A stretch of 35,730 nucleotides of DNA, from the NCBI GenBank assembly GCA_015488535.1, contig WFNP01000060.1, positions 1-35,730 of the forward strand. Direction: 5' to 3'. This DNA is from Nitratifractor sp. (lineage in GTDB: Bacteria; Campylobacterota; Campylobacteria; Campylobacterales; Sulfurovaceae). Below the pieces are notes generated by a model. The model had not been told where the DNA came from. It ran no database searches and was given only the letters and a program-made list of their open reading frames with translations. The translations under genes and the position numbers were made by a program. Below are positions 2,761 to 16,249 of this stretch, piece after piece. Position 1 is the first letter of the stretch. Every line of letters starts with the position of its first letter.

Positions 2761-3752
2761 CTACCTCCATTATCAGTAGATGATTCACCGCCAGATGATG
2801 GTGGTGGGGCATCATTATGGGGTTGAGATTCTGAATGATTCTCATAACTGTTGTGACTCTCTTGTGTCTGAATATCTGCAGAGCCTCTGTCATTATCCAT
2901 CTCTACTTTGCCTGACATATCTACTCTATCAGGCATAGCAGGATTTGTAACTGCTTTATCTGTTTTGAATATTACTTCTGTGTTTTTGATGTGTGGAGAG
3001 ACTATCGGTCTGCTTTGTGTTATATTTGGATTTGTAACTGCTTTATCTGTTTTAAATACCACTTCTGTATTTTTGATATGATGAGAAACTATCGGTTGTT
3101 TTGGTGAGATATCAGAATTTGTAATCGCTTTCTCTCTATTATCTTTCAATGTATCCAATGGCTTATTATTTACAATATCATTCTTACTATTATCCATTTC
3201 GCCATTATCTACCGCCACATGTTCATCTATATTTGGTTCAACAGTGGGTCTGCTATTTACAGACGGTCTGTCAATAGTGACTTCTCTGTGAGCTTTGACA
3301 ATATTTTGCTCTATCATCTGCTCAACACGGTGATTGCTATGGTGTATCACTCCTCCCATATCATTGACTACATTGATTACACTGTGATGATTGCTTATCT
3401 CTATCCTGTCTTGTAAATGCTCTATACCTCTATTATGTGTGACAATACTGTTTACTCTCTTGGTATAAGAAGCTTTTGCACTTCTTCTGACCTTTTTGTG
3501 AGTTATACCTTTGTTAGAGTGTGCAATAGATGTGCGGAGCTTCCTTATGGCTCTGATTCTTTCTGCTCTATTGAGGCTGAATAATCTTTTTTTCAGATTA
3601 TTCATCAACTTCACTCTCTCTTTTGGCGGTGCTGATTTGATTTTCATAATTTCAGCATCAAGACTTGTCCCAGCATGAAGAGAAAACATTCCTAAGAACA
3701 TCATCGTAACAATAGTGGCGATTACATTCTGCATATTTTTCATCTCATTCAT
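2754..3752 (-). CDS. Exported repeat-containing periplasmic protein, Spy/CpxP-like N-terminus (tentative)
   Basis: This 332-aa protein begins with a signal peptide (hydrophobic about 9-25, then SLHAG). Residues 30-75 form a charged helical stretch (PPKERVKLMNNLKKRLF, then LNRAERIRAIRKLR). The pattern recalls Spy/CpxP-type LTXXQ periplasmic helices; this resemblance is by eye only. The middle is rich in His and Asn. It carries a 29-residue tandem repeat around KNTEVVFKTDKAVTNP. The tail is Pro/Gly/Ser-rich and ends GGRW. It is first in the operon with the barrel protein and the two-component system. The start is uncertain: ATG 3752 or ATG 3743, neither with a strong ribosome-binding site. Function unknown; a periplasmic accessory or stress-sensing partner is an inference from context. 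Confidence 0.65.
   Translation of the reverse strand: MNEMKNMQNVIATIVTMMFLGMFSLHAGTSLDAEIMKIKSAPPKERVKLMNNLKKRLFSLNRAERIRAIRKLRTSIAHSNKGITHKKVRRSAKASYTKRVNSIVTHNRGIEHLQDRIEISNHHSVINVVNDMGGVIHHSNHRVEQMIEQNIVKAHREVTIDRPSVNSRPTVEPNIDEHVAVDNGEMDNSKNDIVNNKPLDTLKDNREKAITNSDISPKQPIVSHHIKNTEVVFKTDKAVTNPNITQSRPIVSPHIKNTEVIFKTDKAVTNPAMPDRVDMSGKVEMDNDRGSADIQTQESHNSYENHSESQPHNDAPPPSSGGESSTDNGGRW
2941..3140 (-). repeat. 87-bp in-frame tandem repeat, about 2.3 copies
   Basis: Near-identical units start at 2941, 3028 and, in degenerate form, 3115, an exact spacing of 87 bases (29 codons). Each begins on the plus strand with a version of GGATTTGTAACTGCTTTATC; the third copy reads GAATTTGTAATCGCTTT. The repeats lie inside the exported protein gene and encode KAVTNP-type units. 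The two full copies differ mostly at third codon positions, consistent with an old duplication held by selection on the protein. Confidence 0.85.
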
Positions 3753-7235: not shown

Positions 7236-7292
7236 GCAATAAATTAGTATATTGGTATATTGGTTATTAGTTATTGGAGATAGGATATCTAT

Positions 7293-13198: not shown

Positions 13199-13909
13199 GT
13201 GCAAGAGATGACCATCATAATTCCTGTATATAATGAAGTAGAAAACCTCCAAAAAGTAAAAGAGATTTTTGATGACTATTTACCGAGTGCATCTTACCCT
13301 GCAAAAATATTATTTGTAGATGATGGTTCAAATGACGGCAGTCTGGAGATGATAAAAAAGATATGCCAAGATAAGAAATATGACTATATCTCATTTACCA
13401 ACAACAGAGGGCTTAGCAGTGCCATAAAAGCAGGTATAGACTATGCCTCTACGCCACTAATCGGTTATATAGATGCAGATTTACAAACAACACCATATGA
13501 TTTTGAAAAACTCTTAGAATATATTGATGATTATGATGCAGTTGTTGGATACAGAGCCAAAAGAGCCGATACGCTAAGCAAAAAGATACAGTCAAAAATA
13601 GCCAATTTTATTAGACGCTCATTTATAGATGACGGTATCACAGACACAGGCTGTCCTCTGAAAATATTTCGCAGTGAAATAATCAAAAAGATACCTTTTT
13701 TTGACGGAATGCACCGGTTTATTCCGGCTCTGATGCTGCTTGAGGGAGCGACAATCAAACAAGTGCCGGTCAGACATTTTCCAAGAGTTGCCGGAGTATC
13801 CAAATTTAATATATTTAACCGCTCAATCAAGCCACTGCAAGACCTCTTTGCATACAGATGGATGAAGAGCAGATATATTAAATATGATATCAAGGATACA
13901 TCACTATGA
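13199..13909 (+). CDS. Family 2 glycosyltransferase, dolichyl-phosphate-mannose-synthase-like
   Basis: A cytosolic-face GT-A enzyme of 236 aa, probably making an undecaprenyl-phosphate-linked sugar. It has the N-terminal strand MTIIIPVYNE, the nucleotide loop FVDDGSNDGS (39-48) and the metal-binding DAD (YIDADLQTTP, about 90-99). A C-terminal HxxR-x-G-x-SK block (RHFPRVAGVSKFN) is also present. It lacks the C-terminal membrane helices of the ArnC/GtrB group, so it looks like the short Dpm1-type. GTG 13199 is preferred over ATG 13208 because AAGGA (13184-13188) is 10 nt upstream. It overlaps the LAB_N gene by 4 bases (ATGA). Confidence 0.9.
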   Translation: MQEMTIIIPVYNEVENLQKVKEIFDDYLPSASYPAKILFVDDGSNDGSLEMIKKICQDKKYDYISFTNNRGLSSAIKAGIDYASTPLIGYIDADLQTTPYDFEKLLEYIDDYDAVVGYRAKRADTLSKKIQSKIANFIRRSFIDDGITDTGCPLKIFRSEIIKKIPFFDGMHRFIPALMLLEGATIKQVPVRHFPRVAGVSKFNIFNRSIKPLQDLFAYRWMKSRYIKYDIKDTSL

Positions 13910-14544
13910 GTCATTGGTGGATATATACGATAGGATTTATGGCTCAGGCTCTCTTTTCGGCCAGACTGCTGATACAGTGGATAGCATCTGAGAGAGTCAA
14001 AAAGACAATAAATCCTCAACTTTTTTGGGAGTTGAGTCTGTTTGCTTCTATTATAATGTTTGTTTACGGTTGGCTTAGAGAAGATTTTGCAATTATTCTG
14101 GGGCAGAGTATCACATATTTTATATATCTTAGAAATCTGCATTTTATGGGCAGATGGAAAATGTTTCCGTTAATCACAAGAATAATATTACTTTTTTTAC
14201 CGACTATATTTTTAATATACTCTTTTACAAACGGTAAAAATGATACAGATATATTATTTCATAATCACAATATACCTCTGTGGCTCCTAATATGGGGTAG
14301 TTTGGCTCAAATTATGTTTACTATGAGATTTGTATATCAGTGGGTATATTCAGAAAAAAGAAAAAGTTCACATCTGCCGTTGGGATTTTGGCTCATCAGT
14401 CTGACAGGTTCATCTATGATAGTGATATATGCGATATTCAGAGCAGACCCTGTGCTGTTTTTGGGGCAGATATTCGGATTGACGGTTTATGCCAGAAATA
14501 TATATTTCAATTTAAATCATAAAAGGATTGAGACAGGGCATTAG
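13906..14544 (+). CDS. Membrane protein with two tandem LAB_N domains
   Basis: LAB_N is the small membrane domain found at the N-terminus of some lipid-A-disaccharide synthases and as a stand-alone protein beside GT2 and GT39 genes. Here it occurs twice in one 212-aa chain. Copy 1 (about 8-82) includes ALFSARLLIQWIASERVKK and ends YLRNLHF; copy 2 (about 122-205) includes IMFTMRFVYQWVYSEKRKS and ends YARNIYF. The shared RxxxQW-x-x-SE core and LGQ signature show an internal duplication. Each copy has about three membrane helices. It probably helps synthesis or flipping of a lipid-linked sugar; that role is inferred from neighbours. The stop codon lies inside the first units of the heptamer repeat. 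Confidence 0.88.
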   Translation: MSHWWIYTIGFMAQALFSARLLIQWIASERVKKTINPQLFWELSLFASIIMFVYGWLREDFAIILGQSITYFIYLRNLHFMGRWKMFPLITRIILLFLPTIFLIYSFTNGKNDTDILFHNHNIPLWLLIWGSLAQIMFTMRFVYQWVYSEKRKSSHLPLGFWLISLTGSSMIVIYAIFRADPVLFLGQIFGLTVYARNIYFNLNHKRIETGH

Positions 14545-14585
14545 GCATTAGGCATTAGGCATTGGGCATTGGGCATTGGGCATTA
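14537..14585 (+). repeat. Heptanucleotide tandem repeat GGCATTR, seven units
   Basis: Seven perfect-length 7-base units run without gaps: three GGCATTA, three GGCATTG, then one GGCATTA. The first two units contain the stop codon (TAG 14542-14544) of the tandem LAB_N gene; the rest is intergenic. The block structure, with one variant following the other, suggests expansion by slipped-strand copying. Because 7 is not a multiple of 3, unit changes alter spacing and not a reading frame here. Confidence 0.95.
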
Positions 14586-14610
14586 TAAAAATAACTTATA
14601 AACCATAAAT

Positions 14611-14638
14611 AACCAATAACCAATAACCAATAACCAAA
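14611..14638 (+). repeat. Second heptanucleotide repeat AACCAAT, four units
   Basis: Three perfect AACCAAT units (14611-14631) are followed by AACCAAA (14632-14638), and a degenerate AACCATA sits just before at 14601-14607. The complement, TTATTGG-type heptamers, also appears in degenerate form at about 7247-7278 upstream of htpX. The tract ends 15 bases before the GT39 start codon and so forms most of its untranslated leader. Confidence 0.9.
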
Positions 14639-14653
14639 ACACAAAAGGTCAAT

Positions 14654-16249
14654 ATGAAAACTTCAAACAAAGAGTTGTGGATACTGTTACTGTTTAGCAC
14701 TATAGTTTTACTATCTACCTGCGGTATATACTCTCCTATGGAGAGCAGTGATGCCAGATATCTTGAAATTGGCAGAGAGATGTTTTTAAGCGGAGATTAT
14801 ATTCATCCAAATCTGCTCAATATACACCACTATCACAAACCACCCGTTACATATCAATTGGCTTCACTTGGATATGAGATATTCGGTGTCAATCCTTTTG
14901 GTGGTAGATTTTTTCTGCAAATATCTATACTGCTTCAGATATATTTGGTCTATAAACTGGCTATACTGCTTACTGACAACTTAAAAGTTGCAATATACAG
15001 CTCATATATTTACAGCTCTTTTATTCTTGTCTTGAGTGCCTCCCGCTCATTGACTACTGACAGCTTTTTGAGTCTTTTTGCACTGCTTGGTATCATATTT
15101 TGGATTTTGTATGACAAAAACAGAGACAAAGCTATATATCTGTACTGTTTCTCTCTTGCTATGGCACTTGGATTTTTGAGTAAAGGTCCTGTAGTATTTA
15201 TTGTGCCTGTTACATTCATAGCTATATACAGATATTTTTTCAAACAAAACAGACAATGGAAGTATGAGCATATCATTGCACTGATTCTGTTTATTATTGT
15301 GGGTGGTAGCTGGTATTTTTATCTGATATGGGAAAACCACAACTTTTTTGATTATTTTACTCTTAGACAGACTGTAGAGAGATTTGCTAGTAGAGTATTT
15401 CACAGAGATGAGCCGTTTTACTACTACTGGATACTCACACCGCTTTTGGGTCTGCCGTGGCTTGGAATAGTGCCTTATCTGATAAAAAAGGTTAAATTAG
15501 CAAAGATAGACAGAGTATTACTTTTTACTTCTGTTGCCGTATTGATATTTTTTTCACTCTCTCACTCCAAAAGGATTTTATATATCCTGCCTCTTATGCC
15601 TATATTTGCAATATTTACATCTCATCTACTCACACAGATAAATCAATCAGATAAATTTATACAGAGATTTGTAACTGGATATATTACTATCTTGTTCATA
15701 GCTATGTTTACAGCACCAATTAGTAATAAAATATCTATGCCATGGTGGATATACATAGTTTTAACAGTTGCAATTTTGATAATATTCAGACTGAAAAGCA
15801 GTATTAAATCTCTAATCACAGCATCGCTAATTGCCAATTTTACTCTGCTTGGATACTTTTCTGTATTGGCAAGATACAATCCTGTATTGGTGCATAGTGA
15901 TGCCCAGATATTGACTACCTGGCTAAAAAATAAAAATCTTGACAGATACAATATCATAGTATATGACAAAAGATTACCTTCATTATCATTCAATTTAAAC
16001 AAAAGTATAATCTCTGTCTATGACAAATCACCGGATTTAAACAGAGAAATACAATTTGAAACAAATAACACATATAAAAGATACTATTACAATCTAAACA
16101 AAAAAGATGAAATAACAAGACTCAAAAGTTTTATGAAAGACAATCCCCATATCATAATCACAAAAAAAGGATATCCTCATAAAGACAGATTATGGCTCAT
16201 AAATGGTATGAAAAGAGTTGATATGGGTAAATGGAGTATATATTACTGA
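14654..16249 (+). CDS. GT39 (ArnT/PMT-type) membrane glycosyltransferase
   Basis: This 531-aa polytopic enzyme should transfer a sugar from an undecaprenyl-phosphate donor to an acceptor on the periplasmic side. The first periplasmic loop carries the family acidic motif, SSDARYLEIGREM (about 32-44), equivalent to the E/D-A-R-Y of ArnT, and HYHKPPVTYQLAS. About ten to twelve hydrophobic segments follow, then a soluble C-terminal region of roughly 130 residues. The acceptor (lipid A, glycan or protein) cannot be told from sequence. AAAGG lies about 8 nt before ATG 14654. The neighbouring GT2 and LAB_N genes supply a coherent donor-synthesis pathway. Confidence 0.9.
   Translation: MKTSNKELWILLLFSTIVLLSTCGIYSPMESSDARYLEIGREMFLSGDYIHPNLLNIHHYHKPPVTYQLASLGYEIFGVNPFGGRFFLQISILLQIYLVYKLAILLTDNLKVAIYSSYIYSSFILVLSASRSLTTDSFLSLFALLGIIFWILYDKNRDKAIYLYCFSLAMALGFLSKGPVVFIVPVTFIAIYRYFFKQNRQWKYEHIIALILFIIVGGSWYFYLIWENHNFFDYFTLRQTVERFASRVFHRDEPFYYYWILTPLLGLPWLGIVPYLIKKVKLAKIDRVLLFTSVAVLIFFSLSHSKRILYILPLMPIFAIFTSHLLTQINQSDKFIQRFVTGYITILFIAMFTAPISNKISMPWWIYIVLTVAILIIFRLKSSIKSLITASLIANFTLLGYFSVLARYNPVLVHSDAQILTTWLKNKNLDRYNIIVYDKRLPSLSFNLNKSIISVYDKSPDLNREIQFETNNTYKRYYYNLNKKDEITRLKSFMKDNPHIIITKKGYPHKDRLWLINGMKRVDMGKWSIYY

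Follow-up and report, generated by a model that had tools for sequence, protein, structure and literature searches.

Heptameric repeat arrays between a LAB_N gene and a glycosyltransferase gene of Nitratifractor: a probable insert of a dispersed repeat family

REP and BIME elements, with their RAYT transposases, are short palindromes at gene ends, and the STRR sequences of cyanobacteria are short tandem heptamers of several unit types. The closest known system to the repeats described here is that of the G-rich heptameric repeats of Xanthomonas and Nostoc (GGGAATC and GGGGA(C/T)T), which the available text of Rehm et al. (2015; PMC4692102) presents as genome-wide and non-coding, their G-rich strand adjoining or overlapping a stop codon when it is the coding strand, and preceding a start when it is the non-coding one. 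They occur singly or in inverted pairs, the adjoining genes are of mixed function and heptanucleotides of Calothrix are mentioned in the same text. The TAACTGA direct repeats of marine Beggiatoaceae (MacGregor, 2015; PMC4679880), as the accessible portion of that paper describes them, are intergenic and give stops in three frames, with 13 sets overlapping the upstream stop codon; there is one main unit, related heptamers are rarely in tandem, and the usual position is immediately ahead of a start codon. The accessible parts of both papers raise the question of why heptamers dominate bacterial simple repeats. Heptamer-derived satellites in bacteria are mentioned in the available part of PMC6749651, and the BrickBuilt MITE of Porphyromonas gingivalis is outlined, in the available part of PMC4596501, as having a 23-base unit and a leader and tail with small inverted ends. 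A search covering papers outside subscription returned none on Nitratifractor together with a tandem repeat or heptamer, and among the matches listed from the wider literature none had Nitratifractor heptamer arrays in its title or the start of its abstract.

The window (the whole stretch of DNA that was analysed, 35,730 nucleotides) is on contig C60 of a Nitratifractor genome (G000) of 1.87 Mb in 81 contigs. The features around the repeats are as follows.

13199–13909, plus strand: GT2 gene, upstream in the same gene run (Pfam)
13906–14544, plus strand: LAB_N gene, with two LAB_N stretches (PF07578; Pfam)
14537–14585, plus strand: array 1, (GGCATTR)7 (direct reading and TRF)
14542–14558, plus strand: three TAG codons (14542, 14549 and 14556), one in each reading frame (0, 1, 2) of the gene upstream
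14586–14610, no strand: A+T-rich core separating arrays 1 and 2 (direct reading)
14611–14637, plus strand: array 2, AACCAAT in 3.9 copies (direct reading)
14638–14653, plus strand: short leader ahead of the glycosyltransferase ATG, containing AAGG as a possible ribosome-binding site (direct reading)
14654–16249, plus strand: PMT/PMT_2-type glycosyltransferase gene (GT39-like; Pfam)

The preliminary description placed two heptamer tracts, 25 bases apart, in a 109-base gap between a LAB_N gene and a GT39 gene. Their spacing and the length of the gap (stop at 14544 to ATG at 14654) are confirmed, Pfam bears out the LAB_N and PMT_2-type (GT39-like) neighbours, and direct reading agrees with the reported order of seventh bases in the GGCATTR units, AAAGGGA. 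The claim that the tracts lie inside the gap holds for array 2 but not for array 1, which starts 8 bases within the LAB_N gene, the TAG stop of this gene (14542–14544) being part of the first unit. TRF gives array 1 as 14537–14585 with period 7, 7.0 copies and the consensus GGCATTA, and array 2 as 14608–14637 with period 7 and 4.3 copies (AATAACC frame). The three A-type units of array 1 are the source of the TAG codons in all three frames. On the minus strand array 2 reads ATTGGTT, and its G-rich strand is again directed inward from the gene edge. The longest match run at lags of 4–12 was 14 across 200 copies generated by a first-order Markov model of the window, versus 20, 20 and 23 observed, and elsewhere in the window there is no further perfect run of period 3 to 15 with at least 12 matched positions. 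No Rfam match at gathering scores was obtained for the window and five further loci.

Two other repeats were noted in the window: a degenerate ATTAGTAT/TATTGGT tract at 7243–7277, upstream of another gene and resembling the octamer arms of other inserts, and a tandem repeat of period 87 in 2.3 copies (2935–3135) within a predicted gene. The six named matches of the glycosyltransferase (14654–16249) are from Bacteroidota, Chlorobiota, Cloacimonadota and Neomarinimicrobiota at 36–45% identity, in a search that may omit near relatives of the source genome.

Both units recur across the source genome, as emerged from the search for further GGCATTR and AACCAAT tracts that had been proposed. The GGCATTR pattern gives 115 overlapping matches and its reversed control 0; AACCAAT gives 125, and as its reversed unit is the same cyclic unit it has no control value. 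For each pattern the positions considered are roughly the first 100. In a sample of ∼250 kb (34 stretches picked near arrays and contig starts, together with the window) there are 40 three-unit runs of period 7, versus 4, 0, 0, 4 and 4 for periods 4, 5, 6, 8 and 9. The assignment of the tracts to heptameric tandem repeats of the short-tandemly-repeated kind is upheld by their direct tandem arrangement, their genome-wide recurrence and their mainly non-coding location, the last assessed from longest-ORF calls only. Within the ∼250 kb sample, 25 of 26 G-quadruplex motifs are (GGGCATT)n; a canonical G-quadruplex in the window arrays was ruled out, the motif of four G3 tracts being absent from them.

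The family extends through part of the genus. GGCATTR arrays are present in six of 150 family genomes, all six within the 13 Nitratifractor genomes, and AACCAAT arrays in seven of these 13. Loci fetched from the 12 relatives by neighbouring protein contain 36 period-7 runs, versus 0, 0, 4 and 6 runs of periods 5, 6, 8 and 9 at the same loci; G020, G053 and G070 have none of the 36 and G058 has one. The period is constant at 7 while the units vary among relatives. Stretches of GC-rich relatives that were chosen by their arrays are mosaics of many-unit heptamer arrays separated by perfect short hairpins, and in the intergenic blocks L146–L173 hairpins such as GCGTTGC-nnn-GCAACGC were observed between arrays. 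GGCATTG and AACCAAT rank with the most frequent units in array-chosen relative stretches of 55–58% GC (36% in the window), as is expected because these arrays were used to choose the stretches. A four-gene tree groups the source genome with G020 (49% GC) and next with G053 (34% GC); both nearest neighbours lack GGCATTR and AACCAAT units, which points either to late spread in the source genome or to loss in these two. Four units are the preferred length of the Xanthomonas and Nostoc repeats; array lengths in the Nitratifractor relatives show a peak at 29–31 bases plus many shorter runs, a peak that is absent from the source genome and may be affected by the many-contig state of most relative assemblies, in which long arrays may have been lost. 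Of the 32 contig ends inspected, most of them chosen for arrays, 20 have a period-7 run no more than 20 bases away; the genome has 162 ends in all. Draft assemblies of the Nitratifractor group can break at heptamer arrays. Exact arrays were also seen in IMG/VR stretches (L114–L138), with GGCATTG in nine and AACCAAT in 16.

The tracts had been regarded as the leader or spacer of a surface glycosyltransferase gene, and a special link of this kind is not supported, the genes at array junctions being of mixed function. Among 20 proteins encoded at or near array junctions Pfam assigned families to 19, and about seven of the 20 are envelope-related (GT2, LAB_N, PMT_2, outer-membrane efflux, O-antigen ligase, PglD-like and LpxC); the others include FtsW, MurG, amino-acid kinase, aminotransferases, a menaquinone enzyme and proteins of cell division, transport and cofactor synthesis. 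The GT2 gene sits one gene away from the array. The 20 proteins are a chosen set without a background rate, so the scan establishes only that genes other than surface genes have arrays as well. The envelope-related share, the position of tandem repeats immediately ahead of a glycosyltransferase gene and the variation in array length among loci would suit a contingency locus, in which changes in unit number switch or tune a surface glycosyltransferase by phase variation. We nevertheless consider such a switch very unlikely: arrays likewise end ftsW, amino-acid kinase and aminotransferase genes, the tracts are outside the GT39 reading frame, the three-frame stops leave LAB_N nearly insensitive to a change in unit number, and the LAB_N–GT39 gap contains no promoter-like match, the best one (14479–14506) being within the LAB_N gene. 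A terminator-like match is likewise absent from the gap. That the block order AAAGGGA reflects slippage, as was first proposed, is plausible and gains from the range of 3 to about 19 units per array in the source genome. The order may also have a meaning beyond slippage, since the A units give the three-frame TAG codons and the G units are predicted to pair with AACCAAT.

The junction in the window has one counterpart without arrays. In G046 a GT2-like frame, LAB_N and GT39 are consecutive, the last being a syntenic homologue of the window glycosyltransferase, with 11 bases shared by LAB_N and GT39 (the GT39 start being set by homology). This is the one relative among 12 with a LAB_N homologue in the search made, so that the empty site at this junction is provided by a single genome. 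Four further junctions were chosen that have both flanking genes on one strand and inside a contig, their gaps being extrapolated from tblastn alignments. Between ftsW and murG the source genome has a 109-base insert with (ATTGGTT)5, and the gap in relatives is −5 to +2 bases at all ten loci with both genes, from nine genomes (13 relative loci were returned; at the other three the neighbour is lacking or the locus is cut or paralogous). Between the efflux-protein and methyltransferase genes the insert is 207 bases long; 11 relatives have both genes (12 were returned), four with gaps of −7 to +11 bases and seven with gaps of 155–275 bases, and heptamer tracts, partly degenerate, were recognized by eye in five of these seven (within 170 bases past the stop). 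The junction of an aminotransferase gene with a gene of unknown function is 75 bases long in the source genome. Ten relatives have both of these genes (11 were returned): five carry no array insert (gaps of −2 to +12 bases, plus one of 48 by extrapolation, in which the first ATG comes after 18) and in the other five, where the gap is 72–98 bases, heptamer tracts that are partly degenerate sit at the stop or run across it. The amino-acid kinase junction has a different downstream neighbour in 11 of 11 relatives and hence is not comparable. Because G020, the nearest relative in the tree, has neither murG after ftsW nor the partner gene after the aminotransferase, the evidence from it is the efflux junction (−7 bases) alone. 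Judged from these alignments, the 109-base LAB_N–GT39 gap is best read as an insert.

Arrays are also polar: from the gene edge the G-rich strand runs inward, and a TAG stop is often provided by the first array. Both window arrays fit this polarity. We oriented 41 array instances of the source genome by their G-rich strand, the 5′ side being inside a contig for 34 and the 3′ side for 29. A same-strand stop of a long ORF is located at −11 to +15 of the array 5′ end in 15 of the 34, and 12 of these 15 stops are at +1, +8 or +15 and are the array's own TAG; only a divergent start is nearby in five, and neither a stop nor a divergent start in 14. On the 3′ side no array of the 29 has an adjacent stop (in two cases a stop is farther off, at −31 and −37) and three have a same-strand start within 60 bases. 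TAG is the stop of 11 of 14 array-ended ORFs versus 39 of 183 other ORFs (Fisher p = 2e-5), a bias that is partly built in, as the GGCATTA unit itself contains TAG; for the same reason the arrays supply the stop, rather than TAG attracting arrays. Neighbouring arrays in relatives, read on the plus strand, are ordered G–C in 31 cases, C–G in one, G–G in 16 and C–C in 15 (35 stretches of eight relatives, nine pairs containing a unit without G/C skew being set aside); the corresponding numbers for the source genome are 1, 0, 2 and 3, with only a single pair of perfect arrays facing each other.

Inward polarity on both sides is predicted by templated or self-templated 3′-end extension, in which an enzyme would add 7-base units to broken 3′ ends before they are rejoined at junctions, as are a constant period of 7 with varying units and arrays that begin exactly at the junction. 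Against this, RVT_1 reverse transcriptases are present in only two of the 13 genomes and repeated cores such as that described below are left unexplained; we know of no enzyme or template for the templated 3′-end extension of heptamers, and regard the mechanism as highly improbable. A reverse-transcriptase frame of more than 500 residues was noted at L237 (contig C11 of the source genome), and only one of the 12 congeners gave an RVT_1 match; reverse transcriptase was rejected as a general driver, as it was not found in all array-bearing genomes. It is also quite unlikely, in our estimate, that a trans-acting process of Nitratifractor writes 7-base units inward from junctions, its machinery setting the period and polarity and a small set of templates supplying the unit. 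If it did, the templates would be common to species of 35% and 57% GC and the array–hairpin mosaics would be layers of such events.

A core of ∼125 bases flanked by inverted arrays (L095:3082–3208) has at least 11 matches in the source genome (40 of 59 candidates being scored) and none in the 12 other Nitratifractor genomes. Such a core, the short REP-like hairpins that alternate with arrays in relatives and the units common to the source genome and distant congeners could indicate a non-autonomous MITE- or REP-like element whose ends are heptamers, which a transposase would mobilize in trans and which is selected at gene junctions. We hold this to be unlikely: the matches to the core do not include the window, and the IS200-like Y1 transposase (PF01797), although present in seven of the 13 genomes including the source genome, was not found in array-bearing G064, G086, G076, G081 and G038, all but one of which are less than 97% complete. 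IS200/RAYT is likewise disfavoured as a general driver, not being found in all array-bearing genomes. Seven Y1-transposase matches in G010 have identical scores and are therefore probably recent copies.

Eight inserts of the source genome were chosen for folding, and five of them fold with z scores of −4.8 to −8.9, their 7-base units pairing with 8-base units. This would be expected of a functional intercistronic RNA structure under selection, in which the left-hand heptamers would base-pair with heptamers or octamers on the right to form a long hairpin, shielding the upstream mRNA or damping the downstream gene. The inserts at L074 and L083b, however, fold worse than shuffles (z = +1.9 and +1.8), the window is weakly better than shuffles (z = −1.9; −1.5 for a longer stretch), with three G-type units predicted to pair, as ATTGG, with three CCAAT, and facing arrays in GC-rich relatives look mostly non-complementary by eye. 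Selection for such a structure appears distinctly unlikely.

Given the observed dispersal, insert and empty sites, polarity and TAG bias, the 109-base spacer is probably an insert of a dispersed Nitratifractor heptamer-repeat family, placed between formerly overlapping genes, prone to slippage and of small effect. It is an inverted array pair around an A+T-rich core, with the G-rich strand (ATTGG or GGCATT) running inward from each gene edge and A-type units providing stops in every frame. Array length would change by slippage, and arrays would reach new gene junctions by copying, most simply by template switching between repeats during replication. Their persistence at junctions may reflect survival bias: elsewhere genes would be broken, which would explain why arrays begin on a stop codon. 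The insert would uncouple GT39 translation from LAB_N and add a weak intercistronic ATTGG:CCAAT hairpin to the mRNA; the change in expression is probably small and nearly neutral. Within this unusual, genus-wide repeat system the window tracts are one ordinary copy. At identical junctions, sites with and without an insert can be compared across 13 congeners in which the units differ and the period and polarity do not, and since a sequenced type strain (N. salsuginis) also exists, the origin of heptamer arrays is directly testable.

STRR sequences and the Nitratifractor arrays are both tandem heptamers of several unit types, from different phyla. REP and BIME elements share short palindromes at gene ends with the GC-rich Nitratifractor relatives, which differ in carrying heptamer arrays between the palindromes; the Y1 transposase, moreover, was not found in five array-bearing genomes. 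We have seen no earlier description of overlapping genes compared with and without an insert, of one genome carrying many units that share a period, or of the array–hairpin mosaic. BrickBuilt, in the available account (PMC4596501), resembles the Nitratifractor inserts in having tandem repeats within a dispersed intergenic element, but its repeats are internal and those of Nitratifractor are at both ends. With the TAACTGA repeats, as described in the accessible text of PMC4679880, the window arrays share intergenic heptamers, overlap with the upstream stop and three-frame stops; the units GGCATTR and AACCAAT differ from TAACTGA. As the accessible texts already report stop overlap (PMC4692102) and three-frame stops (PMC4679880), array polarity and the supply of stops are not new in kind. 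The Nitratifractor heptamers resemble those of Xanthomonas and Nostoc, as far as the available text of PMC4692102 describes them, in dispersal, stop-codon overlap, G-strand orientation, occurrence singly or in inverted pairs and mixed neighbouring genes, and differ from them in that the window units are GGCATTR and AACCAAT rather than GGGAATC or GGGGA(C/T)T, the window arrays lack the G3 quadruplex motif and the Nitratifractor relatives carry many unit types per genome.
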